DNA from: Xylona heveae TC161
Taxonomy: Eukaryota > Ascomycota > Xylonomycetes > Xylonales > Xylonaceae
Reading direction: 5' to 3'
Assembly: GCF_001619985.1 (NCBI RefSeq)
Contig: NW_017264194.1
Location: 3,098,187 to 3,125,686, forward strand
DNA: 27,500 nt
Positions 1 through 27,500 of this stretch are shown here, in pieces; the stretch's first letter is position 1; each line of letters starts with the position of its first letter. The translations under genes were made by a program, and so were the position numbers. Below the pieces are notes generated by a model. That model was not told the DNA's origin, ran no database searches, and was given only the letters and a program-made list of their open reading frames with translations.

Positions 1-231
1 AATAATCTAGTTGCACACATTGGCTGGGTCCATTTGACTAGTGGTTTCAATCATCTGTACTACAGGTTCACAGATCAGATTGTATTACCTACCTCTGCAT
101 TGGAAGAGTGACTTCAGAAATTGTTGCAACTCTGGCAAAACCCACATGCCTTCATATATGACATTTTCAATACAGGCAAAGACATATGGGTGGCATGTTG
201 CTCAATGCTCTGGGAAGCATATGATGATTAA
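1..231 (+). pseudogene. C-terminal end of an unrecognised gene, cut by the window edge
   Basis: Reading frame 1 from the first base gives about 76 codons of ordinary-looking protein with a single internal stop. It includes WVHLTSGFNHLYYRF near the start and DIWVACCSMLWEAYDD at the end. The frame closes with a TAA that lies inside the first copy of the 18-bp palindrome. The 5' part lies outside the window, so the family cannot be judged. It does not resemble the C-terminal blocks of the three tandem paralogs downstream. An alternative reading is chance coding-like sequence; the Trp/Tyr-rich, low-complexity-free composition argues mildly for a true exon. Confidence 0.4.
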
Positions 232-244
232 ACCATGGTTTGAT
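227..244. repeat. 18-bp palindrome, copy 1
   Basis: ATTAAACCATGGTTTGAT, one transition away from the perfect palindrome ATCAAACCATGGTTTGAT. It contains the apparent stop codon of the partial gene to its left and lies 80 bp before copy 2. Confidence 0.9.
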
Positions 245-280
245 TATGTATCTAAATTTGTATTAGCAAGACCTGTTATC

Positions 281-303
281 ATTCAATCACCAAGTGATTG
301 AAT
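281..303. repeat. Perfect 10-bp hairpin with 3-nt loop
   Basis: ATTCAATCAC, loop CAA, then GTGATTGAAT: the arms are exact reverse complements. It sits between palindrome copies 1 and 2. It is not followed by a T-run, so a terminator role is not indicated. Function unknown. Confidence 0.75.
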
Positions 304-306
304 AGA

Positions 307-324
307 ATCAAACCATGGTTTGAT
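307..324. repeat. 18-bp palindrome, copy 2 (perfect)
   Basis: Exact ATCAAACCATGGTTTGAT. It lies in non-coding DNA just after the hairpin at 281-303. Confidence 0.95.
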
Positions 325-1499
325 TTATGTATGCTTGTAACCAAGACCCAACAGGACTATTATAAAAGAATTTAGGCTTGAAACAAATGTATATATTAAT
401 AAAAAACAAAGCCTTGGTTTAAAAACCCATAAGCAAGTTCAAACATTAGAAATATCATTGACCCATCATATGATTAATAGTATTGACTGTAAATTCTTAT
501 CATCACATGATGGGTTGTAGATTGTCAATTAGGTCAACCATGATGGTTCAAATAACATGCCTCCTTAAATTACCTTTACTAGTTGATTTTTGCTCCATTA
601 TTTAGTGTTTTCATGATGCATAAATGAGGCTGCTTTTAAACTGCTCCAGTTTTCTTCTGCATGCTTGGTTTGGCATCAATCTGCTACAATTTCATGTTTA
701 CTATGTGCAGAAAATAGCTGTTATTAGACCCTAATTCTACCACATACTCAGTTGTTTACATGATCTGTTAAATTCTACAAATGTACAAACCCTACTCTTG
801 TACCCTGTTGTAGCATAAAGATACCTTTGTTTTTACCATTTGAGGTTTTTAGTCATGTTTTCACACTCTGACTTTGAACATTCTAGATTGTTCTCTAGTT
901 GTGTTTGTTTTACAGATTCACTCTGTTGCCATGACTGTAGACAAAGCAGCCCCAGCAACAATTGCCTGCAACCAGCTCCATAGCAACAGCTAGGCACATG
1001 TTTGTATATTTAGTTGCTTCTGCCTGGAAATTTTCTTCCTTCTTCTCAACACTAGCATCATGATAGTCAGTCAACATTACACTAGTAAGTGCTTCTACAC
1101 AGCTTGACATAACAAAGTACTAACTCTAAGCAGTGTCTGATCATCCAGGTAGTTAAATACAATCCTAACACACTGTTGGACCAGCTGCTGTCAACAGAAG
1201 CTAAGCATGGGCAGATTCTCAGACCCTGCCAGGTGGAACTCCAAACACCATGAATACTGCTCCCAGTTGTAGGCCTTGTTCATTACATTAGCATTATTAT
1301 GTCTAACCTTATTGTTGATCTAGCAGCCATGTCACAAGAGTAACAAGCTAGTAAGCTTAGATTCTACCAGGTTGGTCAAGGTTGGAAAAGATGCTAAGAA
1401 TCTACAGGACAAAACAAATCCACGAAGGGCTGTGGAGGTAGGGATTACCTTCCCATTAAGATTGTACACTTAAACTAACTTAAAGCAGGGCAAAATCAC
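325..1499. other. Gene-free stretch upstream of the tandem gene family
   Basis: No frame on either strand looks coding; the short minus-strand frame near 910-1110 has no recognisable content. The base composition is AT-rich without low-complexity arrays. The only structure seen is an inverted repeat with 14-bp arms at 461-474 and 502-515 (13 of 14 pairs, ACCCATCATATGAT against its complement) around a 27-nt loop. A promoter for the first paralog would lie here, but I see no element I can support. One of the three surviving CpG of the window is at 1423. Confidence 0.6.
461..515. repeat. Inverted repeat, 14-bp arms
   Basis: Arms 461-474 and 502-515 pair at 13 of 14 positions with a 27-nt spacer. 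It is isolated in gene-free DNA and no flanking target duplication was seen. It may be a minor transposon remnant or chance. Confidence 0.45.
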
Positions 1500-1992
1500 T
1501 TGGCACCTGAAGAGCAACAGCATGATTACACCAAGGAAAACCTTACATTTACAGACCCTCTTGCAGACACCATCAATAGCGCGTACCTTGGTACAGTGTT
1601 GGTTTCTATTGACAAGTTGAACACCAACTGGGGAGAAGGACTTGACACCAATTGTCCTCTTTCTGAGTCCCAGGTAATGAACCTGGTGAAGATATTTACC
1701 CAGTCAGGTCTCTGAAAGGAGGAGTTTGATCATAGGTTGGTGGCTGGGTGTGATCAGGGGATGTGAAACAGACTAGTTGCAAAAGGAAACCTTTCTGTGG
1801 CAATTGTCAGTCAAATCTGAGATGGCCTTCACAGGTTCTCCACCAATCTCCATGAATTTCATACTATTAACATTGATGATGAGAATATTCTGCTGTATGC
1901 TGGTCAACATAGATGCAGGGCCATCATCCACATTTGTAATACAACTGAAAACCTCACTGAGGAAGACAAATGCAAGGTATGCTTCAAACAAA

Positions 1993-2010
1993 ATCAAACC
2001 ATGGTTTATA
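1993..2010. repeat. 18-bp palindrome, copy 3, in intron 1 of paralog A
   Basis: ATCAAACCATGGTTTATA: left arm perfect, right arm altered at its end. It lies in the 49-nt intron 1977-2025 (GTATGC...ACAG). The intron is phase 0, and removing it joins the upstream frame to the frame that carries the next conserved block (LWPCKFYDD). Confidence 0.9.
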
Positions 2011-3582
2011 TTAATAACAAAACAGGTCAAATTGTGGCCTTGCAAGTTCTATGATGACAACAAACTCATGGTGGGAGCAAAAATGAAGCTCCAAGAGAAT
2101 CTCTGACTGATTATTCTTGCCAAGTCAGATGGTGACTTGTGGGCTCAAATGCAACAACTTCTGTCCCTCTTGCCAGACCATGAGCACAGTGCCATCCTCA
2201 AGAGCAAGAAGACATTTGAGACATGGGCATCATGCATCAGCTGGCTGACTGATGGAAGCATTCAATGTTTTACTACACTTCTTCAACATCTACTTGCAGA
2301 AATTGTCACCAAAATATGCTTGACTCTATGGGGTCACAAAGTGATGTGGATCTCAATGGTGGATTGCATTGCATACACTCACATTGACAAAGTATGTGCA
2401 ATACCTAAAGGAAATTTGTACCATCACTGACTGCAGCATTAGGTGTAGGTCTGTCTCTTTTGGCACACCCTGGATGAAATGGTGAGGTTGGTAGGTGAGC
2501 ACAACAAGAACAAAATTACTAAAGAAGACATCAACATGGTCAAGCTAGCTGGCAAAAAGATGACACAACCTTCAGACCTTGAGAAGCACTTTTTTCCTGC
2601 CAAAGATATTCAGTAGTTGCTGGGGACAAGCCATGACAGAGATGGTGCAAGTTGGCAACCCCCTCATTTGTTTTCATACCTTTCAAACAATGACTATAAT
2701 AGAGTCTATGACACCCTCAAGAGAAGTCTGCCACATCTACATGACTTTCTTGATATTGGCCATCTTGCTTCAGGTCCTGGCAGAGTGTGCAAGTTTCTTC
2801 TGCACTATATAATGAAGTGGGTGCATTGACAGTACAAAAAACCTGGCAATGCTGATGTAGCAAGGTGGTATGAACAGTGGTTAATTTTCCTCAGCACACA
2901 GATCTGACCAGATATTGAGAGTACAACCTGGCTGGGATGTCAATTAAACCTGGTCAATGTGTTTATTGTGTGACTCTTTGAGCTTGTGTGGGATAATCCA
3001 ATCTGGCTGGAAAAGGCATTGACTGAAACCTATGTAAGTGCCTGCCAATCATGTCCACTGGTACTCCTGGTAACACTTGGCACAGGAGGAGTTGCCAGAG
3101 GCATATGAAAAAGGGGGTGATCAGGAACACAATGTTTTGATGTATCATAAAAGGTTTGACCTAGAAGTATGGGTTGACATTCTTAGACTTGTAGAAGAGT
3201 ATTTCTACAATGGAGCAATCACAAATCCACTCATGGCTGGTATATCTGTTGAGGTATGTAACTCAAGTCACAGCACAGAAGGATGATTGGGGCAACATCC
3301 TGACTATGTTGCAGGGACTTAAATCAAAGCTGTGGACCATCTGGGGTCCAAAGATCTGTGAGATGATGATGTCTCTGAACCTAGAGTTGAAAAATTTGAA
3401 CTTTCTGCATTTGGACTTGAACATCACTGACCTGGAAAATTGGGGGGCTATCTTTGGGGCAAGATGGTCATACTTTGTGCTCTGCAAAGCCCTCTACTGC
3501 AATGACCCCATCATGTTCATGCCAAAGAAGCATAAGCAGGCTGCCATCATCAAAGAAGAGCCCTTGAACAAAGTAAGTAAAT

Positions 3583-3600
3583 ATTAAACCATGGTTTGAT
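3583..3600. repeat. 18-bp palindrome, copy 4, in the second family intron of paralog A
   Basis: ATTAAACCATGGTTTGAT, one transition from consensus. The donor is GTAAGT at 3573. The acceptor at about 3629 restores the frame that carries YLNTYRYNLDPEDN; an AG at 3621 is also present but leaves the wrong frame. Confidence 0.88.
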
Positions 3601-4769
3601 AATCTCATTCATTATTGACAGCATCATAGGAAGAGAAGACCATCTGCTGCACTTGGCTTTGGAACTATGTGATATATCTGAACACCTACAGATACAATCT
3701 TGACCCAGAGGACAACATGGAAGATGTTTTGTCCCTCTGGCTGGATGGGATGGTTTGGAAGACAACCTCAAATGCACTTAAACAAGCAAGCTGCAATGTC
3801 CTGGGACAACAACAAGGTATCAAATGAGTGTGTATGCTACAGGTACAACATAGGGTTCACTGACAAAGGTTATAGGCACCAATGATCAAGAGCTACCTCA
3901 AAGAACACTAGGTTCTCAACAAACTGCCCATGGTATGCTTGCTTCTTCATGGTTTTTGTTGGTGCCTCAACTAGGCCTTCACTAACTTTGAACAGATCAC
4001 ATGAGAAATTGTATCTTGGAGTGGGAGATCACAAATCTAGGAATTGGTCCCCAATAAAACATTCAGCTCACTCAACCAAAATTGATAGATATAGGTAGCA
4101 GAGAGCAGATTGCCCAGCCCTAGATAGCTCCAGAATGTTGATCAAGTTACCCTTGGACAAGTGCTTAGCTAATTTCAGGTGGTAAAAATCAAACTGTTGT
4201 TTAATTTGTCTAGCTGAGCAACCCAACTCCTACATTCCAAATCTCATCCCACTGAGTTCCCATGGAGAGTGTGCAAAACAAAACAGGCTCCTTAGCACTT
4301 CAAAAGAGCAATCTCATTTGTGATGATTCTGTCCAAGAGTAGATTGCAGGTGTGTACCTAGGAACTTTGGCAGTTAACATCCAACACCTCAACACTGACT
4401 AGGGCTCAATCTTGACTGCCAACTGCCCTCTGTGGTCAAATCAAGCCAAGGCTCTGGTGGACCAATTTCTCAATGCATGTCTTCAGAAGGAACCCCTTGA
4501 GAATTGGATCATTGGTGGCTGCAATTTAACAGCCTGGAATGAGCTGTTGAACCAGGCACAGTTGGATAAGCCAGCTGAATGGGAAGCAATGAAAAATGCC
4601 AGACATTAATATCATCTAACCTTGGCCATGTTTCCCTCTGTGCCTAACATCTGGGATTTGAGCCTACTGCTATTCACTGGCCAACATTGTCAAGCCACCA
4701 TTTGTCATGTCCTCTGTGTACATTCAGATAATTTTACTAGAGACAAGAAAGATGCAGTAAGCTTCTACA

Positions 4770-4787
4770 ATCAAACTATGGTTTAAA
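4770..4787. repeat. 18-bp palindrome, copy 5, in intron 1 of paralog B
   Basis: ATCAAACTATGGTTTAAA, with transitions from consensus at three positions. It lies in the intron 4757-4809 (GTAAGC...CATAG), at the same site in the protein as the palindrome-bearing intron of paralog A. Confidence 0.85.
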
Positions 4788-6399
4788 TGGCAACTCATCT
4801 TTATCATAGTTTGTCATGATTCTAATGTGGCCCTGCAACTTCTATGACATGGGACACCTCAACCACTCTGCAATGCTACAACTACAGGAGAACTGGTGTC
4901 TGATGATACTCCCTGAAAGTGATGGCAACCTCTGGGCAAGATTGTCTGCTCTCTTAGAACCAATGTTAGATGGCAAATGAGATAGCATCATGAAATCAAA
5001 AACATCTTTCCAAATGTAGGCATCACAGGTGTTGTGCATTGATGGCAAGGATGCATAGTGATTCATCACCTTACTTTGGCATCCTTTGAAGGACCTTCTG
5101 GATTGGATCTGTATAACACCATAGAGCCAGGAGACTACTAAGATTTCTGCCTTTGATTGTATGGCTTGGACACACTTGGATCAGGTCTGCTGCAGGCAAA
5201 AAAACAATTCTGGGAGTGGATTTGCTAACAGTGCTATGCAGGTGTGGCAAAAGCTGTTCCACAAAACCTTTGAAGGCATGAGGGACCTCCTGAGAAACAA
5301 GCACAGCACAAAATACACTTGACAGGATGTGGAGATTATGTATTGGATCATGGAACAAGATTATGTAATGGAGCTATATATGGCAAGGCTGTTCTATCTG
5401 ACAGAGCAAGAGGTGTGATTGAAATCAGACCTTGTAAAACTGGATGATGCTGTCTGGCTTGCAGGGAATGACCATCTCTACCATCACTACCAGCTCTTCT
5501 TGTATCTGTTGGAGCAGGAGTATCATACACTGTTCATGACTGTTCTGAAGAGAACTCCAGAGGTCCACACCTTCTCCAAGCTGGCCACATTGGCCAACAG
5601 AGAGATGACCATCACCAGCCATGTCATTGAGCACATTGTTCACTGGCTCAATCTGATGTACACAAAGCCTGCCAACACAAGCAAAGAGTGGCAAAATGAA
5701 CAATGGGTAGATGTGCTAACATAAGAGCTAGAACTGGGCACACCTCTGGCCAAGGGCCAGGAGGACACTAGGGGCCACCAAGCTCATGGTTTAGTCAATC
5801 ATCTGATTGAGATGATCACTAGAGAACATCATGTAGGATGGCAAGAGAAGGCTCTTGCCTTGACCTACATACTGAGTTTACCCATTACCATCAGGGGACA
5901 AGGCAATGCACTAATGGCCACAGACTCTGCCACCATCTGAATGGACAGAGATGAAGCCTCAAGAAGCTACTATCACCAAATACCAGAAGTGCTTTGAGCA
6001 TGAAACATGGTGTGACATACTGCAGTTGGTGAAAGACAACATACCATCCACACACCTGTGGTCATTTCTCCTAGATGGTCTCATTGAGCAGGTAAGGAAT
6101 CATCTTGTGGTACAGCAGGAAGGGCTCACTCTGTCAGGATCCCAAATCAAAGCCATGGACAAGCTGGGCTACCAAGACCTGTGCTGTGATGTAGAGGTCA
6201 CTCCAAGACTCCAATGCCATGCATCTAGTGTCTCCATAGGTGGAGTGAAAGATCATGGAGCACAAAAGTGCTATATTCTGCACCAGGCTCATGTACAGTG
6301 CTATCAAGAGACAACTGCAGTGGCAGAGTGAGCAGGATCTAGAGCCACTGTCAAGAAGAACCTGTGCACACAAGGAGAGAATGACAATGGTATGTCCAA

Positions 6400-6417
6400 A
6401 TCAAACCATGGTTGGAT
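6400..6417. repeat. 18-bp palindrome, copy 6, in the second family intron of paralog B
   Basis: ATCAAACCATGGTTGGAT, with one mismatch in the right arm. It lies in an intron running from GTATGT near 6390 to ACAAG at about 6435, just before the block YAEFLQLKGYNLN. Confidence 0.85.
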
Positions 6418-6633
6418 TCTGAGCTAATCCACAAGAAGGACAAGGTGAACAATGCCCATTATACTCTCCACCAGTATGCTGAATTCCTCCAATTGAAAGG
6501 CTATAATCTCAACACCAACAATGACCAAGAGGATGTGTCCTGGCTAAGTTTGGAACTTTGTAAGAGTGACAGGGCAGACACTAGAGCCTCACAGAAGTGT
6601 CAAAGATTGCCAGCACCAAGTTCATCATTCTGA

Positions 6634-7219
6634 CCCATCTCTCTCAACAAAGGAGTTGCTAACTCACCACCATGCCAGCAATTCCCCACAATCAGAGCCA
6701 GCACCCTGAAGGGAGCACTCCTGCACAGATGAGCATCACCAACCAGCTAATACACAATGAAGCCTCCAGGATGTGACTTACCATGAATAGATTGTGGTCT
6801 CATAGATGCACATGACAAAACAGTCATGAGATCACATAACTCCTCACTGCCCTAATCCTTTTCACTATCTTTTCATCCTCATGGGCCAGACAACAAGCAT
6901 ACTTCAAGGATCAATGAATGTTTGAGCAAGCATGTTTGCATCCACATGCAGCATTCTGCTAAGTTTGTATGATCTAGAAATTTCTTTCAGGCTTTCTTTG
7001 AGCACCACTTAGACCATCTTAGTGGTTCAAGCCAGGCATACAGCCTAATAGTAATTCTTTGTTTGAATAATGCCAGAATTCATCCTTTATCATGCCCAAA
7101 ACAGCATCCAAGTGTGTTAGCAATCAACTACAAGGAAAACATGGCTTAAATAGCTGCTGACCCACCCTGTAGATGTGCCACTATGATACCCACATGCCCT
7201 TTTGCCCATCTTGAGAGCC
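6634..7219. other. Spacer between paralogs B and C
   Basis: No convincing coding frame. The first part may be the 3' tail of paralog B, and the stretch before 7220 the leader of paralog C. No repeat or palindrome copy was seen here. Confidence 0.5.
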
Positions 7220-9749
7220 ATGTCTCACCAATGCAAAGCAGAAAACTCATCATCCAGCTCATCCAAGAGTGATCATAGTGATTCTTCCCAGCTGCATCTC
7301 CAGGCAAATGAGTCTGCAGATGAAGAGATTTTGCAGGCATATCTTAGGACAGTTACTGTCCTTGTAGAAGAGTTAAACACCTCCTGGGTCCACTCCACAC
7401 ATGGAAACCAGCTGCTTAATGCACACCACATGCAACATCTTCAACATGTCTTCACCAAGACCAGCATACACAAAACACCCATTGAAAATCAAATGCTTGC
7501 CAGCATTTCACTTTCCCATTAGAAGGAGATGGTTTGGGCCCTTCTTGACAAAGGAGAGCATTTGAAGGAGGCCTTAAGAAGGGCCATGGCAGGAGACTGG
7601 TGCATTTAGGGCCACTTCTCAAAATTTCAACAATTAGAAACACTTGGTAGGGGCCAATCACCCATCCTCTACACTGGTCAGCACCAACATGTAGCCATAC
7701 TTGCACTTCAAGAGCAAATTGTAAGTCCAGATAAATCAGTTTGTCATCATTCAAACCATGGTTTGATTTCTATACACTGACATACATTAGCTCACTGCCT
7801 GGCTTGTTGACTTTTTCAATAAGGCAAAGCTTAGCACACTGGGCAGAGCATGTCTACAAGAAAACTGAAAGCCAACAATCTTAGTTGACACCAACAGTGA
7901 CCTCTAGGCCAAGCTTACAACCCTGCTAGATGACAAGTCTGCCACCAAGTGAAAGACCATTTTCAAATCAAAGAGCATGTTTGAGCAATGAGGGTGCCAA
8001 GTTAGCAAGCTCTCTGCATCCAAGGCACAGCAATGGTACACACTCTTCTAGCATCCTCTAAAGAATGTCATTGACCATTTCTGTCAGACAACATAGGGCT
8101 GGAAGACCATGACTGTTGGTGCATTTGACAGCACCATCAAGTCATGGATGCACAATGTAAGTTTCTGTGATCACCTTTGACACACAAAGCTTACCATTCC
8201 TGCAGTGATTTCATGGCATACTAATGGCACAGCTGGACACCCTTTAATCAGCCCTTGATCAAAAGTTCCCCTCCATCCAAGCCTCAGAGGTCAATGCATT
8301 GGCCCAATTGAGCCAGCCTTTCACATGGACCAAGCTCACAAACTTGTTCTTTCCACCTGGAACAGCCAGCAAGAATCAAACACACCAGGTGGCTCTTCAG
8401 GAAGCTGTCTTTATCCAGGGAAAGGAGCACTCAAGCCAACATGCAGGCTTTTTCACCTACCTGGATGATATAGAGTACTTTACTGTGTATCAGTACTTTG
8501 TCCACAATCCTGATGTCAGCATCATCAGCTATGCTCAATTTGCAAGTCTGACACACAAAGTTAGGGTGACTGCAGGGTACATCCTACACCACATAGTGAT
8601 GTGGATCAATCCCTAGTATGAAAAGCCTAGAAATGCATCCAAAGACTGGAGAAATGAAACATGGAAAGAGGCCATCCATAGGTCACTTGATGCCTACTTG
8701 CAACAGCATCCCAATTGGACCCAGTCAGACAACAACAGTCATGCTGATGATCTAGAGAATCAGATCTACATGCTGATTTACCAAAGCTCTAAACACTGGA
8801 ACAACTCTGCTGTCAAGCCCACCTACATAAGGTTCCCTGCACCAGGTGCCTGGACCATTGCTGACCAGAACAGACCACCACTCTGGACCAGGTGCAAGCA
8901 CTCCTTGACCAAGGCAAAATGAGTGCTGCTGACTACCAGAAGAGGTTTGACCTCAGGATCTGGAACAAGCTGAGGAGCTGGGTGCAACACCACCTTGGAA
9001 CCAATCCCTTTCACTAGGAAGTGATGGCATTCTTCAATTATCATGCCAAGGAGGAAGAGATAGTAGGTTCCCCTGCCCCTCCAGGGGTCTTCACCTCCTA
9101 ACATGCAATAGCCCTATGAGACACTTCCATGGACCACTTGGGGATGAAAGATTCAGGAAAGCATGTGGGCATCTAACTGGGAACTTCAAGGATTGCCATT
9201 TCTTTGGACAGAACAGCTTCAAGCTGATCTTGTGCTACAAGGTGTCCTTTTTGGTGCAAAGTAGACCTATCAGGCACTCTGGCAGTGTTTGCTTGTGGAG
9301 CTGTCAGAGCCAGTGGTTTTGAGCTGGCAGAAGCAGCAGGAGCAGATGACCAAGGTAAGACTGCCACACCTGATGCTACATCTATCCCACTGACTGCTGA
9401 GCAGGACATGTGACAGGCTGTGAGAAGAGTGTTGTGGAGCTATGCCATGTTCCTCAACCAACATGGGTATGACCTGAACCCTGAGAATGACCTTGAAGGA
9501 ACTGAAACCCTTGATGAACAACCACTCAACCAGGCTGCACCACCCAAGACACAAAGCAGAGCAAGGAGAATTCAACCTGAAAATTTTGTGATGGAACTGC
9601 CTCATCCAAAGGTCAAACTGCCCATGGTGAGGAGATGGTCAAGGAAGTAGTGAGCCTCCACCAGTGAGAGCAGCCAGGAACCTGAGCCTAGGAATGACAG
9701 CAGCAGTACTGAAAGTGATCTATCATCTGTACCTACTGATTTTGAATAA
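7220..9749 (+). pseudogene. Tandem paralog C of an unrecognised gene family, decayed, clearest copy
   Basis: The best-preserved of the three. Start: ATG 7220, followed by a Ser-rich N-terminus (MSHQCKAENSSSSSSKSD). Blocks in order are YLRTVTVLVEELNTSW (about 7340), LYTGQH (about 7664), LQENWK and SDLWAK (about 7865-7915), FFTYLDDIEYFTVYQYF (about 8450), YEKPRNASKDWRNETW (about 8618), YQKRFDLRIWNKLRSWV (about 8937) and YAMFLNQHGYDLNPEND (about 9438). Introns are at 7721-7823 (phase 0, palindrome-bearing), probably one from about 8158, and 9355-9404, which lacks the palindrome. After the last block the frame runs through a Ser/Glu/Asp-rich tail to a TAA at 9747-9749. The product would be mostly soluble; no membrane segment, signal peptide or known catalytic motif was seen. 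Internal stops show it is not functional. Confidence 0.82.
7750..7767. repeat. 18-bp palindrome, copy 7, in intron 1 of paralog C
   Basis: TTCAAACCATGGTTTGAT: the palindrome is intact except for the outermost base. It lies in the 103-nt intron 7721-7823 (GTAAGT...AATAAG), twice as long as the homologous introns of A and B, so the site survives despite a change of intron size. Confidence 0.9.
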
Positions 9750-9908
9750 GATGTACAACCCTAAGAGAAATGAACCAAAATCCTTTCAGCACCTGACACC
9801 TTGTCTTTCCTGAAAAAAAAGTAAACAACATGATTACTAATAATATAATTTGCTCTTAAACAAACATTTGACATAGATTGGCTTGATAGCTATCTTGCTC
9901 TACCATCA

Positions 9909-10439
9909 ATCAAACCATGGTTTGATTTATCAATGCTCAACAATTCTTTCACTCTCTGACTAAAGTTGATTGTATTGTACTTTCAGATCTAGTAATTAAT
10001 TTGGACTGCTTAACTATCCATAAAAAAATTAAACCATGGTTTGATCTAAAAATCTTTCAATAACTTTAATTTAGTTACAGTGTCAACAAGAAATCAAACC
10101 ATGGTTTGATTTATCAATGCTTAAAAATTCATTCACTGACTATAGTTGATCATATTGTACTTTCAGATCTAGTAATTAATTTAGACAACTTAACTATCCA
10201 CAAAAAAATTAAACCATGGTTTGATTTTGAAATGTTTATTTTATTTTCATTTGATCTAATAGAAAAATAAATGAAAAATCAAACCATGGTTTAATATAAA
10301 AGCTTTTTATTAATTTTAATTCTTTCTAGTACAAAAGTTTACTACTAATCAAACCATGGTTTAATTATAGAATTTTCTAACTGTTCATTATAATTTAATT
10401 CAGTTATAAAGTTAAACATAGATTAAACTATAGTTTAAA
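9909..10439. repeat. Cluster of seven palindrome copies with a duplicated 137-bp unit
   Basis: Copies start at 9909 (perfect), 10028, 10093 (perfect), 10208, 10278, 10348 and 10422. The segments 9909-10045 and 10093-10225 are direct repeats, near 90% alike by eye, each bounded by a palindrome at both ends. To the right the copies become more AT-rich (TTTGAT to TTTAAT, and finally ATTAAACTATAGTTTAAA at 10422) and the spacing settles at about 70 bp. The array begins 160 bp after paralog C and merges into the AT-rich island. Confidence 0.92.
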
Positions 10440-10980
10440 TTTTTATACTATTAAAATATATAAACAGAATCAAGAAAAAAAAGACTACTTTATTACTTTT
10501 TAAATCTAGTATCTTACTAACTTGTATTTACTTAATTTTTATTATTAACTAATAATATAGAAAGCTTTATTACTAGATAAAGACCCTTGACAATACTAAA
10601 AAATATTTATTTATAAATATAACTATAGTATATAACCCTAACTTTACTTACAAGCTTTTTAAGGACTGTTATTAGTAAATATAATTTATATAAAACTTAG
10701 GACTAGTAAGACTTAATGTTATATAATATAATGATATAAAATTAAGAATAAAAATATTTAGAAGTACTTAATTAACCTATTATTAAGTATAAAGAATTTT
10801 ATAGGTTAAAGATATATATTATAACTTTTATTTCAAAAAAAAAAAGAAATAATAAAATGTTTAGTAATAAATTATACTAATATAAAGATCAAGAGACATT
10901 AGTATAATGTTTAGAGTACTATCTTTATAAAAATTGTAGTCTTAAAAATTAAGAACAATACTAGTAATAAAATAGGGTTA
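10440..10980. other. AT-rich island
   Basis: Almost pure A and T with few C or G, no open frame and no clear repeat unit. It separates the palindrome-bearing left domain from the 11-bp-repeat right domain. It is probably heavily mutated non-coding DNA; the change in composition near 10980 is sharp. Confidence 0.8.
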
Positions 10981-11560
10981 AAGGTAAACAACCCTAAGGC
11001 CAATGCACTTCTAGAGCCTTGTACCATCCTTAATCACCAGCAAAGCCACCAACCCACCACACCCAGGCCTGAGTATACAAGAACTTAGGAGCTTAGGGTT
11101 AGAGCATTGTCCAGGGTTTGACTTTTTAAAAATTAGTCTACTAGAAACTCCTGCTTCTTCTGATTCTCCTAGTATCATTTTCTTCTAGATCAAGGCTTGT
11201 TTAATCCTAGAATCCTCTATTGAAAACTAAGAGTTTTGATGGTTTTGGTCTGATGCAGTTGGCTAGCATGAGAACCATCAAGTACCTGAGCTACAAGTTC
11301 TCAAGCTCTACTTGATTGGGTTTAAACCATTACTGTCACCTTCCTATCAAGGCTAAAGTGTCACCCTCTGCCAGCTAGACTGTCACCATGGTTGGGTTAG
11401 ACTGGTTTTCTCACTAATCACAGCCTGCAGCAGCTCTGCTAGTACCTCTACTAGAGGTACTGGTTGAGTTCTTCCCCATTGTACTGCATGAAGCTCTAGC
11501 CATTGTTGTCACAACCAGGAGTCTCTCTACTGCCAGCAGGTGGTAGGTGCCCAACCACCA

Positions 11561-11630
11561 TGCAATTGATCACCAAATACCTGGGGTGCAATCAGTGTGC
11601 AATTGATGTGTAATGAACCTGCAATTGCTA
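11561..11630. repeat. 11-bp minisatellite array (TGCAATTGATG type)
   Basis: Consecutive 11-nt units include TGCAATCAGTG, TGCAATTGATG, TGTAATGAACC and TGCAATTGCTA. The period is kept although individual bases vary. Related arrays occur at eight or more other sites to the right. Confidence 0.75.
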
Positions 11631-11980
11631 CATTAACCTCCCACCATACCTGCTACTCTATTCTGCTTGTATTTATATCTTGAGGTCATTCTAGACTATC
11701 TTTTCAAGCCAGCAATCTACTCTACTTGTCATTGTTGCAGTCCTCATCACTTCATTGTATTGCTGTGCCACTGTTGACCACCTGACAGCCAAGGTGCAAT
11801 TGATGTGCAATCAATGTGCAATGCATGTGTGATTGTCATGCCATTCTCCTACTACACATGCTACTCTGCCCTGCTAATGTTTATATCCTGAGGTCATTCT
11901 AGACTATCCTTTTGAGCTAGCAATCTACTCCACTGGCCATCATTGTGGTCCTTGTTGCTTCATTGTATGGCTGCACAGCT
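11587..11980. repeat. Direct duplication with a period of about 208 bp
   Basis: TGCTACTCT at 11651 recurs at 11859, and similarity runs on for about 120 bp, including the shared string TGAGGTCATTCTAGACTATC. Each copy is preceded by an 11-bp array. Identity is roughly 80-85% by eye, so the duplication is not recent. Confidence 0.7.
11795..11838. repeat. 11-bp minisatellite array
   Basis: Four units: TGCAATTGATG, TGCAATCAATG, TGCAATGCATG, TGTGATTGTCA. It precedes the second copy of the 208-bp duplication. Confidence 0.75.
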
Positions 11981-12046
11981 AACTGACAGGCTACTAATCT
12001 ACAGGGTCTAACCAGTCTACAATGCTATAGGACTCCACCACAGGCA

Positions 12047-12112
12047 TGCTATGGATGGGCAATTGGTGGGTGATGGGTGGGCAATGGATTGGCAATGAAC
12101 ATGCTATAGCAC
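12047..12112. repeat. 11-bp minisatellite array
   Basis: Six 11-nt units: TGCTATGGATG, GGCAATTGGTG, GGTGATGGGTG, GGCAATGGATT, GGCAATGAACA, TGCTATAGCAC. Confidence 0.75.
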
Positions 12113-12480
12113 TGTCATTGTCCTACAACTAACCTATCCTTGATTAGCCACCATGTTGTGGTTGCAACTCCTACAATAAGCTCCTACACCCCCCCAATAT
12201 GCTGCTCTACAGCCAGGGAAAGAACAAAAAGAAAGGAAAAGAAAAAGGAGAAGACAGAGAAGCAGCAGCAGCAGACATAAGCACACACTGTTGATAAGCA
12301 CAGCTCAACAGCAGGCAAGGGGTGAAGAATGCTCAAGGGGACCTCCATCTCTACATGTTCTTTACATCAACTGTTACACATCCCCCCAACAAGAGATGGA
12401 CCACAGTCTCTTTATCTGTCTTTCCTTTGTGTCAATCCTGCCATCATGGAGTCACAACACAGCAAGCTCAGGGCAGATCC

Positions 12481-15400
12481 ATGGCAGACCACCCATCAGT
12501 CAACTCAGCAGCCATTCAGGCTGCTGAACTGTAGTGCTAGCAGCTCACTGCAGTGTGTACATGACTGTGGCATGAGTAAAAGCATGCATCTCAAGCTATC
12601 CAACCATCTCCTACACCAGAGTAGCTACAACAAGGGGAAGCAATCATCAATCTCTTGTTCTACTCATGGGAGACCCCCCTGACCTCAGTGGCCCTGGGCC
12701 TCTGCTATCAGAATGGCTTGCTGGCTCAGGACCATGAGGATGCTCAGTGTCAACAGTACACAGTGGCCACTCCTGTGCATGAGAGCTTGTATTACTGTCC
12801 TGGCATTGGGCACTCTGAGAGGCCTCCACCTGGCACTGCCATGGTGAATGCCACAACTGTGACCAGCACCAGGCCTGCCCTGAGCCAGCCTGGTCAGCAA
12901 TCCATCTCACACTTCTTCACCAGCCTACCAGCCCCAAATCCCCTTCAGCCTCCTGCCATCAGAGAGCATGAGGGGCCCAGCCTTGAGAGGGAGGGAGGGC
13001 ACATGTCTACACCTGCCAACAACCAGCCTGGGAGCCTAGCCAATGAGCCTCAACCCCAGGAGGAGCTGCCACAACCACTGGACCCAGCTGCTCTAGTACA
13101 GGGCCTAAGCCCCACCTCTCCTATGCTGACACCATGCTCTGACTCTACCCTGTCCTGGGGGGGTTTCTGGCCACATGGCAGCAAGGACCACCTGCACAAG
13201 ATGGACCAGTGTAGCCACAGCAGCTCATTCCATGACTTTCTGTCTGAGCATTCTGAGCTGGAGGACAAGCTGGAGGATGAGCTGGAGGATGAGCTGGAGG
13301 ATGAGCTGGAGGATGATCCACTCCTCACTCCTGAGTAGGCACATGCCATGACAAAACTCTATGAGCAGCTTCAGGAAGGATGCCATGGATGCATGGCCAA
13401 GGAGCATGCTGAGGTGCACTGGGCACACCTCATGGCCACAGATGGGATGCATTATGGGCTCAATGACATCTCTAGCATCCCTGGGTTCCCCTCTGTTCTC
13501 TCCCTAGACATGTTCATCTCTCCTGATTGCCTAGGCCAACAGCAATCCCCCACCCCTGATGCATGGCAGGAGATGTTCTGTAGCATCCATGACTTGTCCT
13601 CCCTGCCCATGAGGATCTGCCTGCATGCTGAGGAGACCCAGGCCATGGAGCCACATGTGGTTTTTGACATTGATAGCTTCCTGGGGTTTGCCAGCTCACT
13701 GGCTGTGGCTTGTTAAGGGATCTGGTACCAGCCTGCCCTGTAGATCTGGCAGAACCTCCAGACTGATGTGCATCTCCAGAGCCACCTTGCCCAGGACACT
13801 AGCAACCCTGAGTAGCCCTACTGGTTCACCTTGGCCCTGCTCAAGAAGATCCCCCACTTCTACCTGGGCTGGGTGGAAGGGGCTTGGGATATTGCCATCT
13901 ATGTCCTCTTCCCCCACCTCCCCTTTGACAGTGCCCAGTTCACCTGCCTGACCCAGGCCCAGAGCTTGAGCTGGCTTGACAAGATCTTCTACCTGGCTGT
14001 GTATTGCTACTGCTGGGCTGACTACATGCAGCACCTACCTGTGAGCTATTGCCATGTGCTATATAGCATGCAGGCTGTGTAGGTGGAGGGTTGCCTGGTC
14101 TAGACTGCCAGCTACCAGGCCTGCCAGCAGCTGAGCTACTACCTGCAGCCTGAGTACCTGGCTGACATCTGGTGTGACATCCTTGACACCATGGCTAGCA
14201 CCCTAGGCCTGTGTCACTTCTGTGACCCCTAGCTGTTCTTCTCTGCCAAGGATACCAAGCTGCAGTTCAAGACCACTCCCTCTTGGCCAACCCTGCTTGA
14301 TGCCATGGACAACTTTGAGGTCTTCTTTGATTGTGTCATGGACATGGCCTACATCTTCCCTGACTGCCTCTTTGTTGACCTGGGCAAGGAGATCTGCCCT
14401 TGTGCACACTGGCTACCTGGACAGCTGGCCCTAGTTGACAGCCAGGCCTAGGTCTATCTGTGGAAGTGGTGCTGCCTGGAGCACACCCTAGACTGGATGT
14501 ACAATGGCAAGCCTCCAGCCACTGGCAGCTCCAGGCAGCACTTCTACCAGCAGAACATGCTCTACAAAGCCTGCACAATGACCAGTGAGACCTGTAAATG
14601 ATCATGCCTGTGGAAAGGAGGCCTGATCTATAGCCAGTTCTACAGCTCTATAAAGGAGATCACCAATGCAGCCAAGACTGTGCCCTTTGAGAACAACAGG
14701 CTCAAGGAGCTCATGCTGGATCCCTAGATTAGACAAGCAGCTAGCAACATGATTGGCAGATGGCAGCACAACACCTAGATCATCTAGCATGCATATTGTG
14801 CTAGCAAACAATGGTCCTGTGTGGCATTGAAGGACTCAATGGGGAAGTCCTTTGGCATCCATGAAGAGCACCATGTCAGCTGGACTCTCTTCCAGGGCCT
14901 CCAGAGGCACCTGCACTGGAAGCACCCTGCCAACCTCAAGATCCTCCTCAAGGACTGCCCCTTGTATGCCTGGGCTGTGCAGACCAAGGTGTACCTCAAC
15001 TACCTGTGGCACACCACTAACAAGTTCACCACAGGGTTCAAGGTCATCTACATACAGTGCCACCCTGATTTTGTCACCTGGGAGCAGATGAAGATCATGG
15101 CCATGTTCCTGTGCTGCCTGTGCTTTGTGTTTAGCAGTCACAAGCTGTTGTGTGAATCCCCCCTCTGGTAGAGCCAGAGGTGGTTGGGTGCTCAGAGTGG
15201 TGAAGATGTGCACCTCTGGATCAGACTCAGCTTCTGTAACATGCTGCCACAATACAGACACTGCTGGCTGGAGCCCTAAGTGGACTGGGATTGGCTCATC
15301 TTCAACATTACCATCATGGATCACATCATGTTTGGCAATGACAACCTGAGACACACCTACCATAGGTGAGGTGGTCAGCTCTGTGACTTCTTTGACATGA

Positions 15401-16128
15401 CTCAGTGCCTGGAGCTGGCACTGGGTTGGTTGAAGGAGCACCAGACCCATTGCACAATCACTTCCTGGTTGATGAGCTGGATGGCTTACATCTGCCTGTA
15501 GCAGTTTCAGGCTGACATGCTTCATGGGGTGGAGGCCAAGATTGAGCCTGAGCATTGGCAGGCTGCCCTTGAGGCCAATCAGCCATTCTGTTACAAGTAT
15601 TTTGACTCCATCATGTGTGATGAAGTCTACCTTGCCAGTGGCAATTGTAGTGGCCTGAAGAAGGTGAAATACCTCTTCACCCTGCTCTGGGACTACAATG
15701 ATGGGAAGGTCTGCAATCACTGGGAGGACTGGCCTTATTGCAAGCTGTTTCAATGGGCTTGCATGGGCTTGCAGGTCTAGCAAAGGGATGCTGTTGTCAA
15801 GGACTTCCATGCAAAACACAAGCATATCTTTTACCTCTACCATTGGATCCTCCCCTACCCCAATGAGATGGGCTTGCTACAGAAAACTAAGCAGGGCCAG
15901 TGCATGTGGTATTTGATTAGCATTGCTTCCAAGCATGATCACCATGGCTGCAATTTCTATCAAACTGCATGGGAGAAGACTAACTACAAGGCTGGGTTCC
16001 CTAATCTGTTTCCACAATACTGCTTGTGGACAAAGGAGGAGTGGGAGTTGTGGATGGAGTGCTATGTGGAGGTGCAGGAGCAGCTGCTGGATGTGGTGGA
16101 GGTGGGCAGGGGTGCTAGCTTGGGATAA
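12481..16128 (+). pseudogene. Large unrecognised Trp/Cys/His-rich gene, decayed
   Basis: One frame is kept from about 12655 to a terminal TAA at 16126-16128 with no net frame change. It has about 17 internal stops, about 13 of them TAG. I do not recognise the family. The N-terminal third is Pro/Ser/Gln-rich and probably disordered. It ends in an acidic repeat (ELED units, 13255-13314), after which the protein becomes globular and rich in Trp, Tyr, Cys and His (e.g. HLHWKHPANLKILLKD, VYLNYLWHTTNKFTTG, FPQYCLWTKEEWELWMECY). There is no membrane segment, Walker box or nuclease motif I can name. The start is unsure: ATG 12481 (MADHPSV) is in frame and in good context, but several stops or an intron lie between it and 12655; ATG 12841 is the other candidate. 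Codons end mostly in G or C, which also leaves the opposite strand open by chance. It could be a dead host gene or an ORF of an unknown repeat family. Confidence 0.62.
13255..13314 (+). repeat. In-frame 12-bp repeat encoding ELED units
   Basis: Five 12-bp units of GAGCTGGAGGAT type, the first two varied. They keep the reading frame of the surrounding large gene and form an acidic linker between its disordered N-terminus and globular part. Confidence 0.9.
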
Positions 16129-16417
16129 GTACAATGGGCCATTGCCCTTGTGCTACTACAGATCCATTATCTGCTGATAGATGAGCTGATAGACCAATAG
16201 ACCAAAAGTTCCTGTCATGTATAGCCTACTGTAGTTGTGATTAATGAAGGCTGAGCCTTTGTTAGAATCTTGCAGAGTGCCTGCTTGGAGAGGAGCTGGG
16301 CACAGAAGCTGATCCACAGAGTTATCACCCACCAATCACATGCCTATTGCATGTTGATGGCACTGCCCTTGTGGAGGGTTCTCATGGGTGCTGTGGTCCA
16401 CCTGGCAAAGGGGTTGG

Positions 16418-16472
16418 TGGTGGCATGTCTATTGCACATCTATTGCAGGCCCATTGCATGCCAATCATGCTG
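16418..16472 (-). repeat. 11-bp minisatellite array, reverse orientation
   Basis: Units CTATTGCACAT, CTATTGCAGGC, CCATTGCATGC are the complement of the TGCAATGG-type unit. They lie about 290 bp after the large unknown gene. Confidence 0.75.
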
Positions 16473-16609
16473 CCACAGATGGAGCTCTACCCAGTGCTGG
16501 TCCAAGTAGCTTATGGTTCTCATGCTGCTGGATGAACCACTGCTTGATTTACTGCTACAAGGAGACATCTCCTGGGTTGATGATAGGTTGGTAGCATTGC
16601 AAGTACTAG

Positions 16610-16643
16610 TTAGTTGCAGGCCTGTTGCATGTTCCTTGCATGG
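16610..16643 (-). repeat. Short 11-bp minisatellite array
   Basis: About three units (TTAGTTGCAGG, CCTGTTGCATG, TTCCTTGCATG) in the same orientation as the array at 16418. Confidence 0.6.
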
Positions 16644-16679
16644 CAAGTACATGATGATTCTTTTAGGATGGTACAATGA

Positions 16680-17140
16680 TTACTATATATGCAAGGGACC
16701 TTGGTATAATTTCCATTCCATCAAGCTACTTACTAACTAGACTATAATTTGCTTAGATTATTAAAATCTCTTTATAAATCACCTGATTAATGATATTCTA
16801 AAAGAACAAAAATATATTTAATTTTATTAATTCTAGACATGGAATATTCAGAATTAAATTCTAGAGTATAGTTATACTAGAATGTGGTTTTTTAACTTCT
16901 TCTAAAGTTAAAGGTATCTTGAAAGATGATAGAGATAGATTCTTGTTAACTAATATTAATTCTTATATAAAATATATATAAGCATTATTAAAAAAATCCT
17001 CTAGTCAGACTTATTTAAATATTTTATAATTTTCTCAAGTTATATATTATAAGAAAATAGGAGTTTAACATAGTATAAAATTTTTATTTATCAATCTACA
17101 AGATAGTATAATATTTATTCCTAGATTTTACCTATTGTCA
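16680..17140. other. AT-rich island
   Basis: Very AT-rich, without reading frames or tandem units. It is similar in composition to the island at 10440-10980. Confidence 0.7.
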
Positions 17141-17340
17141 AGTTTGCTTAGGGTATCTGTCAGGTCTGGGTTGGGTTGGTCTTTACCCTCCTTTTCCCAA
17201 CCTGGCTTGGTAGAAATTGAATGGGCAAGCAGACCATGTGATCAAATTTACAGATGGGCATAGTGCCAGTGAGTAGTTGAGACATTGGCCTCTAGCATGG
17301 TTCAATGTATAATTTACTATTGTTGATGAACCTCTAATTG

Positions 17341-17508
17341 ATCTGCCATTGATGTGCAATGGATGTGCAATGGACAGGCAATGACTCAGCTATCAACTTC
17401 ACTTTTGCCTCCTCATCATGGGCCTGTGATTGGACAGATACTCCTCTGAATTGCACCTCCAAACAATCTGCCATTGATGTGCAATGGATTTGCAATGGAC
17501 AGGCAATG
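17341..17508 (+). repeat. Twice-repeated 43-bp block of 11-bp units
   Basis: 17341-17383 and 17466-17508 are nearly identical, 125 bp apart. Each reads ATCTGCCATTG followed by TGCAATGG-type 11-mers and ends in GGACAGGCAATG. Within a block, successive units end in TG or CA. Confidence 0.85.
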
Positions 17509-17619
17509 GTTTGACCATTGCACAAGCTATCTTGTCTGTTTAAGCTTGCTCATAATTCTCCAAGCCTGGTTGATCAGATAAATCTAGGATAAGGTGGCTA
17601 GAGTGGCAGTTACTTGAAA

Positions 17620-17880
17620 CTAGCTAGGTACCTAAGGTAAGGTTGGTATGCTAAATTAGACATGACAGGTGGCCTAACAAATGTACATCTGAAGTACCTA
17701 AGGTAGCTACATGGGTAGAACTATGTCTAAGTACCTTAGTTTAGAAATAAAAGAAGTGTATGAGGAAGTATTATATACATCTCTTAGGTTTACCTAGTAC
17801 CCACCTTACCCTAACCATACCTGATGCAAGGTTAGTAAGGTAGGTTAGGTAGGTAGGTATGGTACCCTTGGTTGATCCTT
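17620..17880. repeat. GGTA/TACC-rich segment
   Basis: GGTACCTAAGGTA (about 17627), GTACCTAAGGTA (17694) and GTACCTTAG (17731) are variants of one near-palindromic motif. It is followed by a TTAGGTAGGTAGG-like run near 17840-17860. No target duplications or coding content were seen. Confidence 0.5.
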
Positions 17881-18296
17881 GAGCTAGCAGTGCTACCTGG
17901 GGCCTTGATAGCACTCTTTGTTTGTTGATGTATCATCTCACTACCTGCTTTCTCAATTCTTCTTTCATCAAACCATCAGTCTTCTCATCATCAAACTTTC
18001 ATCTCTTAACCTTCATTCAAATCACATGATGGATTGGCCATACCTGTGTCATGGTTCTGATGGGCTGCTGCTCAGCCACCTTCATCAGCTGACCTTCTCC
18101 TATGCTTTGGACCAGATATTGATCTACTCTGCAGGCAGGCTGCTATGTAGATTTACTCTCCTACCTGAATGAACATGGCTCTGAAGCTCTCACTAATCAC
18201 AGTCTGCTGCCTACTGAGTTATGTAGTGCTTAAACTTGCTTGACTGATTATAGCTCTAATCAACATGACATTTTACATTCTGTTGTTGTTACATTT

Positions 18297-18611
18297 TCCA
18301 ACACTATGCTCTCACTGCTTGCCTTCTGTTCCCTATTCATCTAATCCTTCAACTAGACTAGTGAGTTCTCCAGAAGCCTCTTTTCCCTTTACTAAGCATC
18401 TCTCAGGTCAGAGCAGACCACCTCTTACATCTGAGTGCAATCACCATTGTGATCTCCAACACTATGCTCTTACCTTCTTGCCTTTGCCTCCCAAACTCTC
18501 TAATAAAACCCTAAGACTGGTGAGTGCCTCCTAGAAGCTATTCATGTCCTCTACTAACCATCTTGTATCACAGGAGATCATCTCTTATATTGGAGCACAA
18601 TCAGCATCATG
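18297..18611 (+). repeat. Tandem 158-bp duplication of the leader just before the UPF1-like start codon
   Basis: 18297-18454 and 18455-18611 both begin TCCAACACTATGCTCT. They align through a GTGAGT, a pyrimidine tract, a CAG acceptor and a segment ending just at the ATG (GCAATCACCATTGTG in copy 1; GCACAATCAGCATCATG in copy 2). Each copy holds an intron-like segment: 18361-18406, and 18520-18573, the latter with GTGAGT, CTAAC and CACAG. This is most likely a duplicated 5' leader exon and intron. Confidence 0.7.
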
Positions 18612-21600
18612 GATGCCAGCTTGGTACATGATCCATGGGCTGATACCAGTAGCAAGAACATCACTCCCATCTTATACCCTACAATCATGATCATCCCCAC
18701 AGGCAATGGATCTGTGTGCACCTCCATAATCATGGGTGAGGCTCCAGGAATCAAAGCCTGCACTGTAATCTATGATGTACCTGGGCACTCTGCATATGTT
18801 GGGATCTGGCTTTTGATCTGTGCTAATGACCAGGAAGTGGTCCAGGCAGAGGCCTGCTTTGACTATGACTCCATTGACACCATTACATGGAGTGTAGCTG
18901 CTACAGAAGAGACCCTCCCCCCCAACATTGCTACTACAATCTAGTTGGTAGATTCTGTGCTAAGGGACCTAATGTAGCAAGGACTCATTACAAAGCTTAC
19001 CCTGTCATTGTGTTGTCTAGCAGGGACAGTATGGGCTTAAAATTTGTTCAATAACAGTACCCATGGTAGATTGACTGTGGCCTTTGACAAGATTTGGCAG
19101 GCACTCCACAGCAGCACAGAAATCCATCTGCTTTGTAGAGGCTTACATGTTGGTGCCAAGCTGAAGTTGGTGGAAGCCTGGCTCCAGGAAGATCAAGCTG
19201 ATTTGCCAATCCACTAATGGCTCCCAAAAGGGGCTGGAGGAAGCCTGGGCTGGGTCTTCCTACAGTATGGGGTGGTGCTTGCACCTGAGCAGTGACTGTC
19301 TGAGCTGTATGAGGCCTAGTCCTCCTTCACAAGCCTGGATGAATATGTTGTCATGCTTGGCCACATGGTGCTACAAGAGTATGAACATGTTGACTGCATC
19401 ATGTAGAGCCTTGGAATGCCACCATACAGTTGTGCTATTGTCCTTGCCTCAATCCTACATGTAGGTGACTGCCAATACCTTGCCTTCATGTGGATGGATG
19501 ATCTACCCTTTTGCTTCCAATCTGGTGATTATCTACTCATTAACTTCTCCCCTGCCAGGAATGTCTCATTAGAAAACTGGGCAGCTACAGCCTTGGAGCC
19601 CTTCTCTTTCTCTCCCAAAGGCACCATGCCCCTGCTTCTAACCTGACTATGGGACTGCAAACAGTGGTAGTGGCTATGCCAAGATATCCCCCTGTAGCTC
19701 CTTGACCTTGCCTCCCACACTGGCATTGCTGGTGCCTACAATGCCCTCCAATCTGCCAAGTGCCTGGATGTTGCTGCCACCTGGAGCTACCCAGACAAGC
19801 TCATTTGATGGTCACTCAATTCTCTCTGTATACTGCAGGAAAACCTCTCCAATTAGTCTGATCTCCCAGCCACCTGGTGTGAATTGGTGAAGACAATTCT
19901 GCTGATGCACAACCTGCTGGCTCTACCAACTGTGGACCTGTACAAGAATGTCAAACCCACCATCAACATGAGCACAGTGATCAACCAATTTGTGTTTAAT
20001 ACTTAGCAGGTTGTTACCATGAAGGCATTGAGGCACCTTCTAGGTGGATTTGGTGTGTTCTAGGGGCTGCCCAGAACTGGGAAGACCTTCTGGGCACTTT
20101 GAATCCTCCTCCCCCTCATAGGCAGCAAGGACTGCACCATTCTCATCACTACACCAATCAATGAGGTAGTAATAGACCTGGCATGCTAACTTTCACAACT
20201 AGTTAAAAAGGAAGCAGTCACCAACACCACTGGTCACCCACCTGTAATCATTCAAATGTACTTGGTTGCCATGGAGGATGCCATGGTGTGGAGCAGAGCT
20301 GGCACTGATTGACTGCCTCCTGCAGACACTTGCCCTCTGATTATCCAAGGTATGTATTGCTTTCATAACTTTGATGCCACTGGTGTGTAATGGGTGTGCA
20401 ATGGGTGTGCAATGGGCATGCAATGGGCTGACAGTCAATCCTTGATTGTGGAAGCTGCTTTGCTACCTAAGACCCCTTTCTGACAGCTCCTGCAGGTCCT
20501 CAAATGAGCAAAAGTGCTGATAACACCATGTCAACAGACACTGTGGATGATGAGACCCTCCTGTTGTAGATGATCACTACACAAGAGATTGTGTCTGCCC
20601 ATGAAGAATGCACATGATGACCCCATGGTGTTGCAGACCTTTGTGTGCAGGAGATTGAACTTAGCCTTGCACTCTAGATGCTCCACTTTGTAGGCATCCT
20701 GTTGGCTCCTGGGTATGAACAGCCTGACTGCTTTGCTAAGTTCTGAGACTGTTATGAACAGTACATGACATCTGCTGATGATGGTCAATTGACACAGCTA
20801 TTCTGTGAGTCTATGAAGGCTCTCCATGAGTACACTCTCCACACCACTAACATCATGCTGACAACCTGCTTAAATGCTATAGATCCTGCCCTCTGTCTGG
20901 TAGTGGGTCATGTAGACACCATTCTCATCAATGAGGCTGCCAAGGTTGCTGAGCCCAAGATCTGGAACATGCTGGCTGGATACTACCCCCAGGTAGTTCT
21001 CCTCATGGGTGATCACCAGCAATTGCAGCCAACTGTACTCAGCTAGCCCACAGAAAACAACCTGGTGCCTCAATTGAGCAAGTTACTCTTCATGTGACTC
21101 AAAGAGAATGGCTTTATGGACCTCATGTTTGAAGAGCAGCACCACATGATCCCTGAGATTGGTGGCATTGTCTCCTCTCTCTTCTATAGTAGCCAGCTCC
21201 AACACATGCACACCTCATCCCCCTTGCACCTTGTCACCACTGCCATCCAGAAAGCCAACCAAGTCCTGCTTGGATGCATGGTCCTGGTGGCCTGGATTGA
21301 CATGCCAATGAGCATTGCTGTCAAGTGCCTATCTAGATCCACTGCAAACAAGATGCATGCTCAAGTCATGTTGTGCCTCATGGACATTCTGGTGACCAGT
21401 CATTCCATGCAACCCTGTGACCTTCTCATCCTCATGCCATATCAAGCATAGTATAAGCTTTACAGGACTGGGATTGTATGGTTGGCTGAGTGCACAGGCC
21501 ATCAGGATCTACTACATCTCCTAGTCCACAAGATTGATGGGTTCCAGGGCAGCAAGCATCCTATTGTCTTGCTCAATCTGACCATCACTAACTAGCTGGG

Positions 21601-21928: not shown

Positions 21929-22531
21929 TGGTGGGATGGGGGAAATTGCCTGATGTTCTAGTGTGCAGGACTAGTAGGGTCAGTCCTTTTCCTTTGTCAC
22001 TGCTCTTTGTCTTAACTCTTCTCATGTTCTCTTTCTAATGTTCTAGCCCATGTTACTAGAGAAATCAGTGAATCTATGCCTGTGTGACAGTAATCTAACT
22101 GATGGGCTTTCATCCTCTAGCCTGCTGTCATATGTAGTGCCTTGTCTGCTTCTTGATTGTGCCAGCCCTCTTTGATGAACTGTAGATTACCAATGGTATT
22201 TAAGGATTAGTCATTCCCCACCAGAGTAAGTTCTTCCTTGCCCATGTTATCATTTGTGCCTCTTCTTGGCTGCCATTGTATCCTGAGCTCCCCTGCCTTG
22301 GTAGAAGACATCCTACTGTTACTGCTGTGCTCTCTCTCCCACCTACTTATTGTTGGCACTGTGTGCCTGTGACCCCTGAACTGATTGCTTTTCTCTCCCT
22401 CTGCTGCCTGCCTCATTACATGGCTTGTATCTGGTTTAGGCTCTGACCATCCATCACAGCTGCCCCTTCACTACCACCTCCTGTCTCATGACAACCCTTC
22501 TCTAGTGTGTCTTGAGGATTGCCAGTTTGCT
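21929..22531. other. Gene-free stretch after the UPF1-like helicase
   Basis: Pyrimidine-rich DNA without a supported frame. It may hold the 3' end of the helicase transcript. No repeat was recognised before the 140-bp array begins. Confidence 0.5.
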
Positions 22532-27237: not shown

Positions 27238-27320
27238 AAGATAGAGTTTTTTTACTTTTTTTATTATATGTTGTTTAATAATCTAGCTATTGATAAACTA
27301 TCTCTTTTAAATGGAATGAA

Positions 27321-27485: not shown

Positions 27486-27500
27486 GTACTGTTACTCTCT

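Follow-up and report, generated by a model that had tools for sequence, protein, structure and literature searches.

Mobile elements are known to carry clustered binding sites, among them parS clusters and the subterminal repeats bound by transposases. In such loci a short palindromic or repeated word is present in many copies, both inside the locus and flanking it. A similar arrangement is described here for a 27,500-nt stretch of the ascomycete Xylona heveae TC161 (contig NW_017264194.1, positions 3,098,187 to 3,125,686 of the forward strand), which was analysed as a whole and is called the window below. An 18-base palindrome, ATCAAACCATGGTTTGAT, recurs within and around three tandem, decayed paralogous genes (A, B and C) in this window. 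Unlike the clustered sites of mobile elements, the copies described here also lie in homologous introns of paralogs whose silent sites are saturated.

Two other systems are close enough to be compared. The introner-like elements of fungi (PMC4457414 and PMC9860276) likewise place a repeated sequence in short spliceosomal introns, whereas the repeat of this locus is only 18 bp long, its intron sites are common to the paralogs and inferred introns contain only a minority of its copies. In bacteria, parS sites have a length of 16 bp (PMC8494293), and the ParB-parS systems (PMC8494293 and PMC12704722) resemble this locus in that several copies of a site about as long are present close to genes. 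In contrast, the genes here are spliced and eukaryotic-looking, and their ParB homology is not significant. Sulfiredoxin is given as the commonest eukaryotic form in the passages of PMC12704722 consulted, and the strings 'fung' and 'Basidiomycota' occur 0 times in its main text.

The clustering of the palindrome, its palindromy, its place in homologous inferred introns and its conservation far above that of flanks and silent sites are established. With roughly even odds, the palindrome is a site for a dimeric protein that recognizes DNA by its sequence; such sites would have been retained outside the coding parts of a locus of several genes, which was probably selfish and decayed later. Across the window, 13 matches with no more than three mismatches were found between positions 227 and 10365, against a mean of 0.03 and a maximum of 1 in 100 dinucleotide-preserving shuffles. 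At up to five mismatches the number of places rose to 18. Fifteen are counted as copies, namely the 13 and the diverged places at 4188 (four mismatches) and 10422 (five mismatches). The latter was accepted because it lies in line with the array and is near-palindromic, with one pair breaking the palindromy and both AAAC and GTTT retained. The places at 8605, 22820 and 26455 (five mismatches each) were dropped; under a matrix derived from the 15 copies, they score 6.2, 0.8 and −1.3 bits. The copies themselves scored 19.3–32.1 bits and the next place 6.2 bits, a gap that is partly built in and scores that are inflated, since the matrix was trained on the same 15 copies. All 14 AAACNNNNGTTT strings in the window lie inside a palindrome copy, and the copy at 6400 is without one.

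Within the first 10,450 bases, 14 sites have no more than four mismatches, where 300 second-order simulations gave a mean of 0.21 and a maximum of 2, and the remaining 17 kb of the window hold none. A preliminary description of this DNA had reported 14 copies in 10.2 kb and nowhere else in the window; the confinement stands, and the number is corrected to 15. They are taken as about 13 independent copies, because part of the array arose by tandem duplication. The introns listed below were inferred from GT..AG ends and from the change of frame between homologous exons, that is, from sequence alone. Palindrome copies and the AT-rich tract are given without strand.

227..244: palindrome copy in the left flank, found by match search; the TAA at 229 inside it ends an upstream open frame
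307..324: palindrome copy in the left flank, exact, found by match search
1300..4200 (limits approximate), plus strand: paralog A, decayed gene unit
1977..2025, plus strand: intron 1 of A (inferred), 49 nt
1993..2010: copy within the first intron of A; its three mismatches are all at the right edge
3573..3621, plus strand: intron 2 of A (inferred), 49 nt
3583..3600: copy within the second intron of A, donor offset 10
4188..4205: diverged palindrome copy between A and B, four mismatches
4250..6650 (limits approximate), plus strand: paralog B, decayed gene unit
4757..4809, plus strand: intron 1 of B (inferred), 53 nt, 3' end uncertain
4770..4787: copy within the first intron of B, three mismatches
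6390..6435, plus strand: intron 2 of B (inferred), 46 nt
6400..6417: copy within the second intron of B, donor offset 10
7150..9750 (limits approximate), plus strand: paralog C, decayed gene unit
7721..7790, plus strand: intron 1 of C (inferred), 70 nt, 3' end uncertain
7750..7767: copy within the first intron of C, one mismatch
9355..9401, plus strand: intron 2 of C (inferred), 47 nt, without a copy
9909..9926: array copy, exact
10028..10045: array copy, one mismatch
10093..10110: array copy without mismatches, almost identical to 9909 owing to a tandem duplication of about 180 bp
10208..10225: array copy, one mismatch; near-duplicate of 10028
10278..10295: array copy, one mismatch
10348..10365: array copy, one mismatch
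10422..10439: most diverged array copy, five mismatches, one pair non-palindromic
10001..10985 (right edge read by eye): AT-rich tract with six of the seven array copies

Copies are found at two homologous intron sites of the family. The first introns of A, B and C (A1, B1 and C1) and the second introns of A and B (A2 and B2) each contain one, and the second intron of C (C2) contains none, in agreement with the five intron copies of the preliminary description. Between homologous introns the palindrome matches at 16/18 bases (A1-B1), 14/18 (A1-C1), 14/18 (B1-C1) and 16/18 (A2-B2), and the A2 and B2 copies have the same donor offset of 10. The intron sequence around it, splice ends excluded, aligns no better than chance, with 86, 355, 461 and 439 of 500 shuffles scoring as high for the same four pairs. 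Thus the earlier statements that the palindrome is nearly exact in diverged introns, and that these introns have no other visible similarity, are borne out. The introns also differ in length as had been said, although the range of 49 to 103 nt is replaced by an inferred 46–70 nt, in which B1 and C1 have uncertain 3' ends. Taken by themselves, short GT-AG introns of this kind would point to a fungus, perhaps a basidiomycete.

The three paralogs are tandem units on the plus strand that encode related proteins. Over a spliced stretch aligned to A, B is 37% and C 27% identical to it; over another aligned piece, B is 28% and A 25% identical to C. First and second codon positions match at 47–59% between paralogs and third positions at 25–35%, so that the strong exon divergence noted previously extends to saturation of the third positions. 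The aligned exon stretches (1551-8159) contain 20 in-frame stops (10 TGA, 9 TAG and 1 TAA), half of which (10/20) fall in the 23 columns with tryptophan in at least one paralog. A change of TGG to TAG or TGA is one outside CpG context. The codon-position figures suggest that protein constraint accompanied the divergence of the genes until their silent sites reached saturation, and that the genes were broken afterwards.

Because silent sites are saturated and the intron flanks are shuffle-like, against 14–16/18 matching bases in the palindrome, inheritance with a recently duplicated, unaltered intron is ruled out as the source of the likeness. The simple inheritance of the palindrome with an equally conserved intron, which the preliminary description had named as one of the outcomes that would overturn its view, is therefore rejected. 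Two explanations are left, past selection on the copies or their later arrival or homogenization. The occupation of five of six homologous introns and the equal donor offset in A2 and B2 favour selection.

A mobile or homogenized short repeat is a possible though unlikely explanation. The palindrome, or a slightly larger unit, would have been copied late into the non-coding parts of the locus, by insertion or by seeding from the AT-rich array, and would have no function for the genes. Expansion of the array partly by tandem duplication, with a spacing of about 180 bp, is consistent with such copying. In addition, the 13-nt right flank of copy 307 resembles those of 9909 (9/13, null 0.004) and 10093 (10/13, null 0.0008), nulls that are uncorrected for the 14 copies compared and concern two flanks that are mutual duplicates. 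Among all copies, an extended flank motif stands out for 307, 9909 and 10093 only. The intron copies, however, have no flank in common and no consistent target duplication (the latter judged by eye), and four of the five depart from the consensus each in its own way. Moreover, five of six homologous intron sites and the equal A2/B2 offset would require insertion to be targeted. With regard to DNA-transposon termini or target duplication, the arms that join both flanks of the locus contain the palindrome itself, and no clear termini were seen among the 25 longest of 80 inverted pairs.

The intron sites also bear on the proposal that the palindrome is a tiny introner, a relic of intron-making insertions. 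Five copies do lie in short inferred introns, as such an element would. However, the introns are older than the divergence of the paralogs, because their sites are common to paralogs that are saturated. The repeat does not make up the intron, since the flanks within the introns align like shuffles and the introns are unlike each other beyond the 18 bases. Ten of the 15 copies are outside inferred introns altogether: the left-flank pair at 227 and 307, copy 4188 in the gap from A to B, and the seven array copies of 9909-10439. The introner proposal of the preliminary description is accordingly abandoned as very improbable.

Variation within the motif is unevenly distributed. Over the 15 copies, the inner arms AAAC/GTTT (positions 4-7 and 12-15) agree with the consensus at 119/120 bases, the CATG centre at 54/60 (it is whole in 12/15 copies) and the outer triplets at 74/90. 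Differences from the consensus number 9/90 in the intron copies, 9/126 in the array copies, 1/36 in the left pair and 4/18 in copy 4188. At positions 3 and 16, one half only varies in 9/15 copies and both halves vary in one, as would be the pattern of a tolerant base in each half-site.

The same figures are relevant to an RNA hairpin, in which the pre-mRNA would fold into a 7-bp stem with a CAUG loop and aid splicing or RNA processing. This is improbable, although several observations fit it. The intron copies sit between donor and acceptor of introns of 46–70 nt, three inner pairs are invariant, and the loop varies more than the inner stem (54/60 against 119/120 bases kept). Also, 84.1% of cells are paired against 19.0–58.7% when the alignment is slid by 1–3 columns, which is expected of any palindrome. 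When the nine distinct sequences were shuffled, however, the mean was 85.3% of cells paired, and the covariation score of 0.040 was below the shuffled mean of 0.057, with a single two-sided change (in copy 10422). The loop is kept at 54/60 bases, more than the outer stem at 74/90, C2 and two other candidate introns lack the palindrome, and ten copies are outside inferred introns. The RNA hairpin that had been suggested earlier is thus left without covariation support, in a comparison to which the inner stem, which never varies, is uninformative.

The window has undergone near-total CpG loss. It retains three CpG in 27,500 bases (1423, 1580 and 1582), and TpG and CpA are in excess in six of the seven regions measured. 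The 15 copies are without CpG, and none has TG at positions 3-4 or CA at positions 15-16; the motif is therefore not simply a product of this loss.

For a dimeric DNA-binding protein, half-sites of about ATYAAAC around the CATG centre would each be met by one half of the dimer on DNA. The sites would have been kept in the two homologous introns, in the gene flanks and in the seven-copy array in AT-rich DNA. The locus would be a gene cluster, probably selfish or mobile, and either a product of its own or a dedicated regulator may have bound the sites, in regulation or to build a protein-DNA complex. Gene decay would have followed. The preliminary description had proposed selection on a dimeric protein site. 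What holds of this is that the palindrome was kept at homologous sites while the intron turned over; that a dimeric site fits best we infer, as we infer protein binding, dimerism, the purpose of the sites, the selfishness of the locus and the identity of the binder.

Several points weigh against the dimeric protein site. The array copies are partly tandem duplicates. C2 and at least two other candidate introns of the family (3034-3085 and 8157-8205) have no copy. The genes are broken by their 20 stops, so that selection is past or served something other than these proteins. Later arrival or homogenization of the copies remains compatible with a single window, and the invariant inner arms would suit a hairpin as well. 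Should the dimeric site be confirmed, introns would have been a protected place in which a gene cluster, selfish or self-regulated, had its cis sites. The family introns appear to carry a protein-binding dyad that outlasted all other intron sequence across silent-site saturation, and this dyad, if confirmed, would be a handle toward intact relatives and toward the binder.

One special case of such a protein site was considered, in which the family itself would encode a eukaryotic ParB-like protein and the copies would be its parS-like sites. We find this quite doubtful. Slightly more doubtful is a eukaryotic selfish cluster with its own ParB-like, palindrome-binding family, parS-like sites in introns and flanks, and the AT-rich array as a nucleation or partition site. 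ParB binds palindromes, and DndB belongs to the DGQHR proteins. GQH is present in A, B and C (GQHR in A) in the exon upstream of intron 1, and LQEN in the next exon, which is reminiscent of ParB/DGQHR proteins. A weak DndB match lies at the GQH motif in A (E 0.14), but an unrelated family, DUF1028, matches C at the same E of 0.14. A parS-like site is a palindrome of about 16 bp clustered near genes, and here the palindrome is 18 bp with 15 copies in 10.2 kb.

None of the protein comparisons lends ParB significant support. No significant match to the ParB N-terminal (PF02195) or a related domain was found in the family, in tests that gene decay limits. Searches of Pfam, PDB, NCBIfam and PHROGs gave no ParB match, the weak hits being MapZ (0.11) and two PHROGs (0.18 and 0.23). 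Compared by profile with 10 ParB-like stretches of viral contigs and a typed consensus, the family scored 14.9 over 10 columns, which was exceeded by 4 of 40 column shuffles. By a ParB profile, A ranked 37th and C 166th of the 473 scored among 903 sequences (3 real and 900 shuffled), and B was unscored. The structure model of the first exons (exons only) had a mean predicted local distance difference test (pLDDT) value of 39 and an unusable fold. Plus-strand frames of 1-9752, 11000-20001 and 19500-27500 gave AAA_11/AAA_12 and SNF2 matches and no ParA; in the three plus-strand frames of 1-9752 and 11000-20001 no Pfam match was obtained.

Wider searches covered viral contigs, genome contigs and the literature. 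An exact search for the 18-mer in viral contigs gave two stretches, each with one site at up to three mismatches, which were read as chance. A two-core cluster pattern was found in 0 stretches of the viral contigs and four of the genome contigs, three (L013, L015 and L016) from one Bacteroidetes metagenome-assembled genome and one (L014) from that of an Arcobacter; these were judged unrelated from parts of L015 and L014. At L015:225-529, AAACCATGGTTT forms the basis of a tandem repeat of about 21 bp, which is taken as coincidence. Of protein relatives in viral contigs, 155 stretches fit the peptide pattern and 0 were confirmed. No title on fungal introns appeared among the matches listed for the core string AACCATGGTT in open-access literature, and no report of the motif was found there in titles or abstract starts.

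Other features of the window include the composition around the array, where 10001-11000 has a guanine plus cytosine (GC) content of 20% and is flanked by kilobases of 44% GC. The left pair of copies is part of a longer inverted repeat (215-245 and 306-336), with 31-nt arms of 81% complementarity that are 60 nt apart. Downstream on the plus strand are stretches that match AAA_11/AAA_12 helicase (20807-21670), with six stops, and SNF2 (25096-26094), with five. Minisatellites of 11 bp resembling TGTGCAAT, alike by eye, occur at 11790-11822, 17336-17371, 17476-17499, 20382-20427 and 27416-27483, and a tandem repeat with a period of 140 bp and 2.6 copies occupies 22531-22890.

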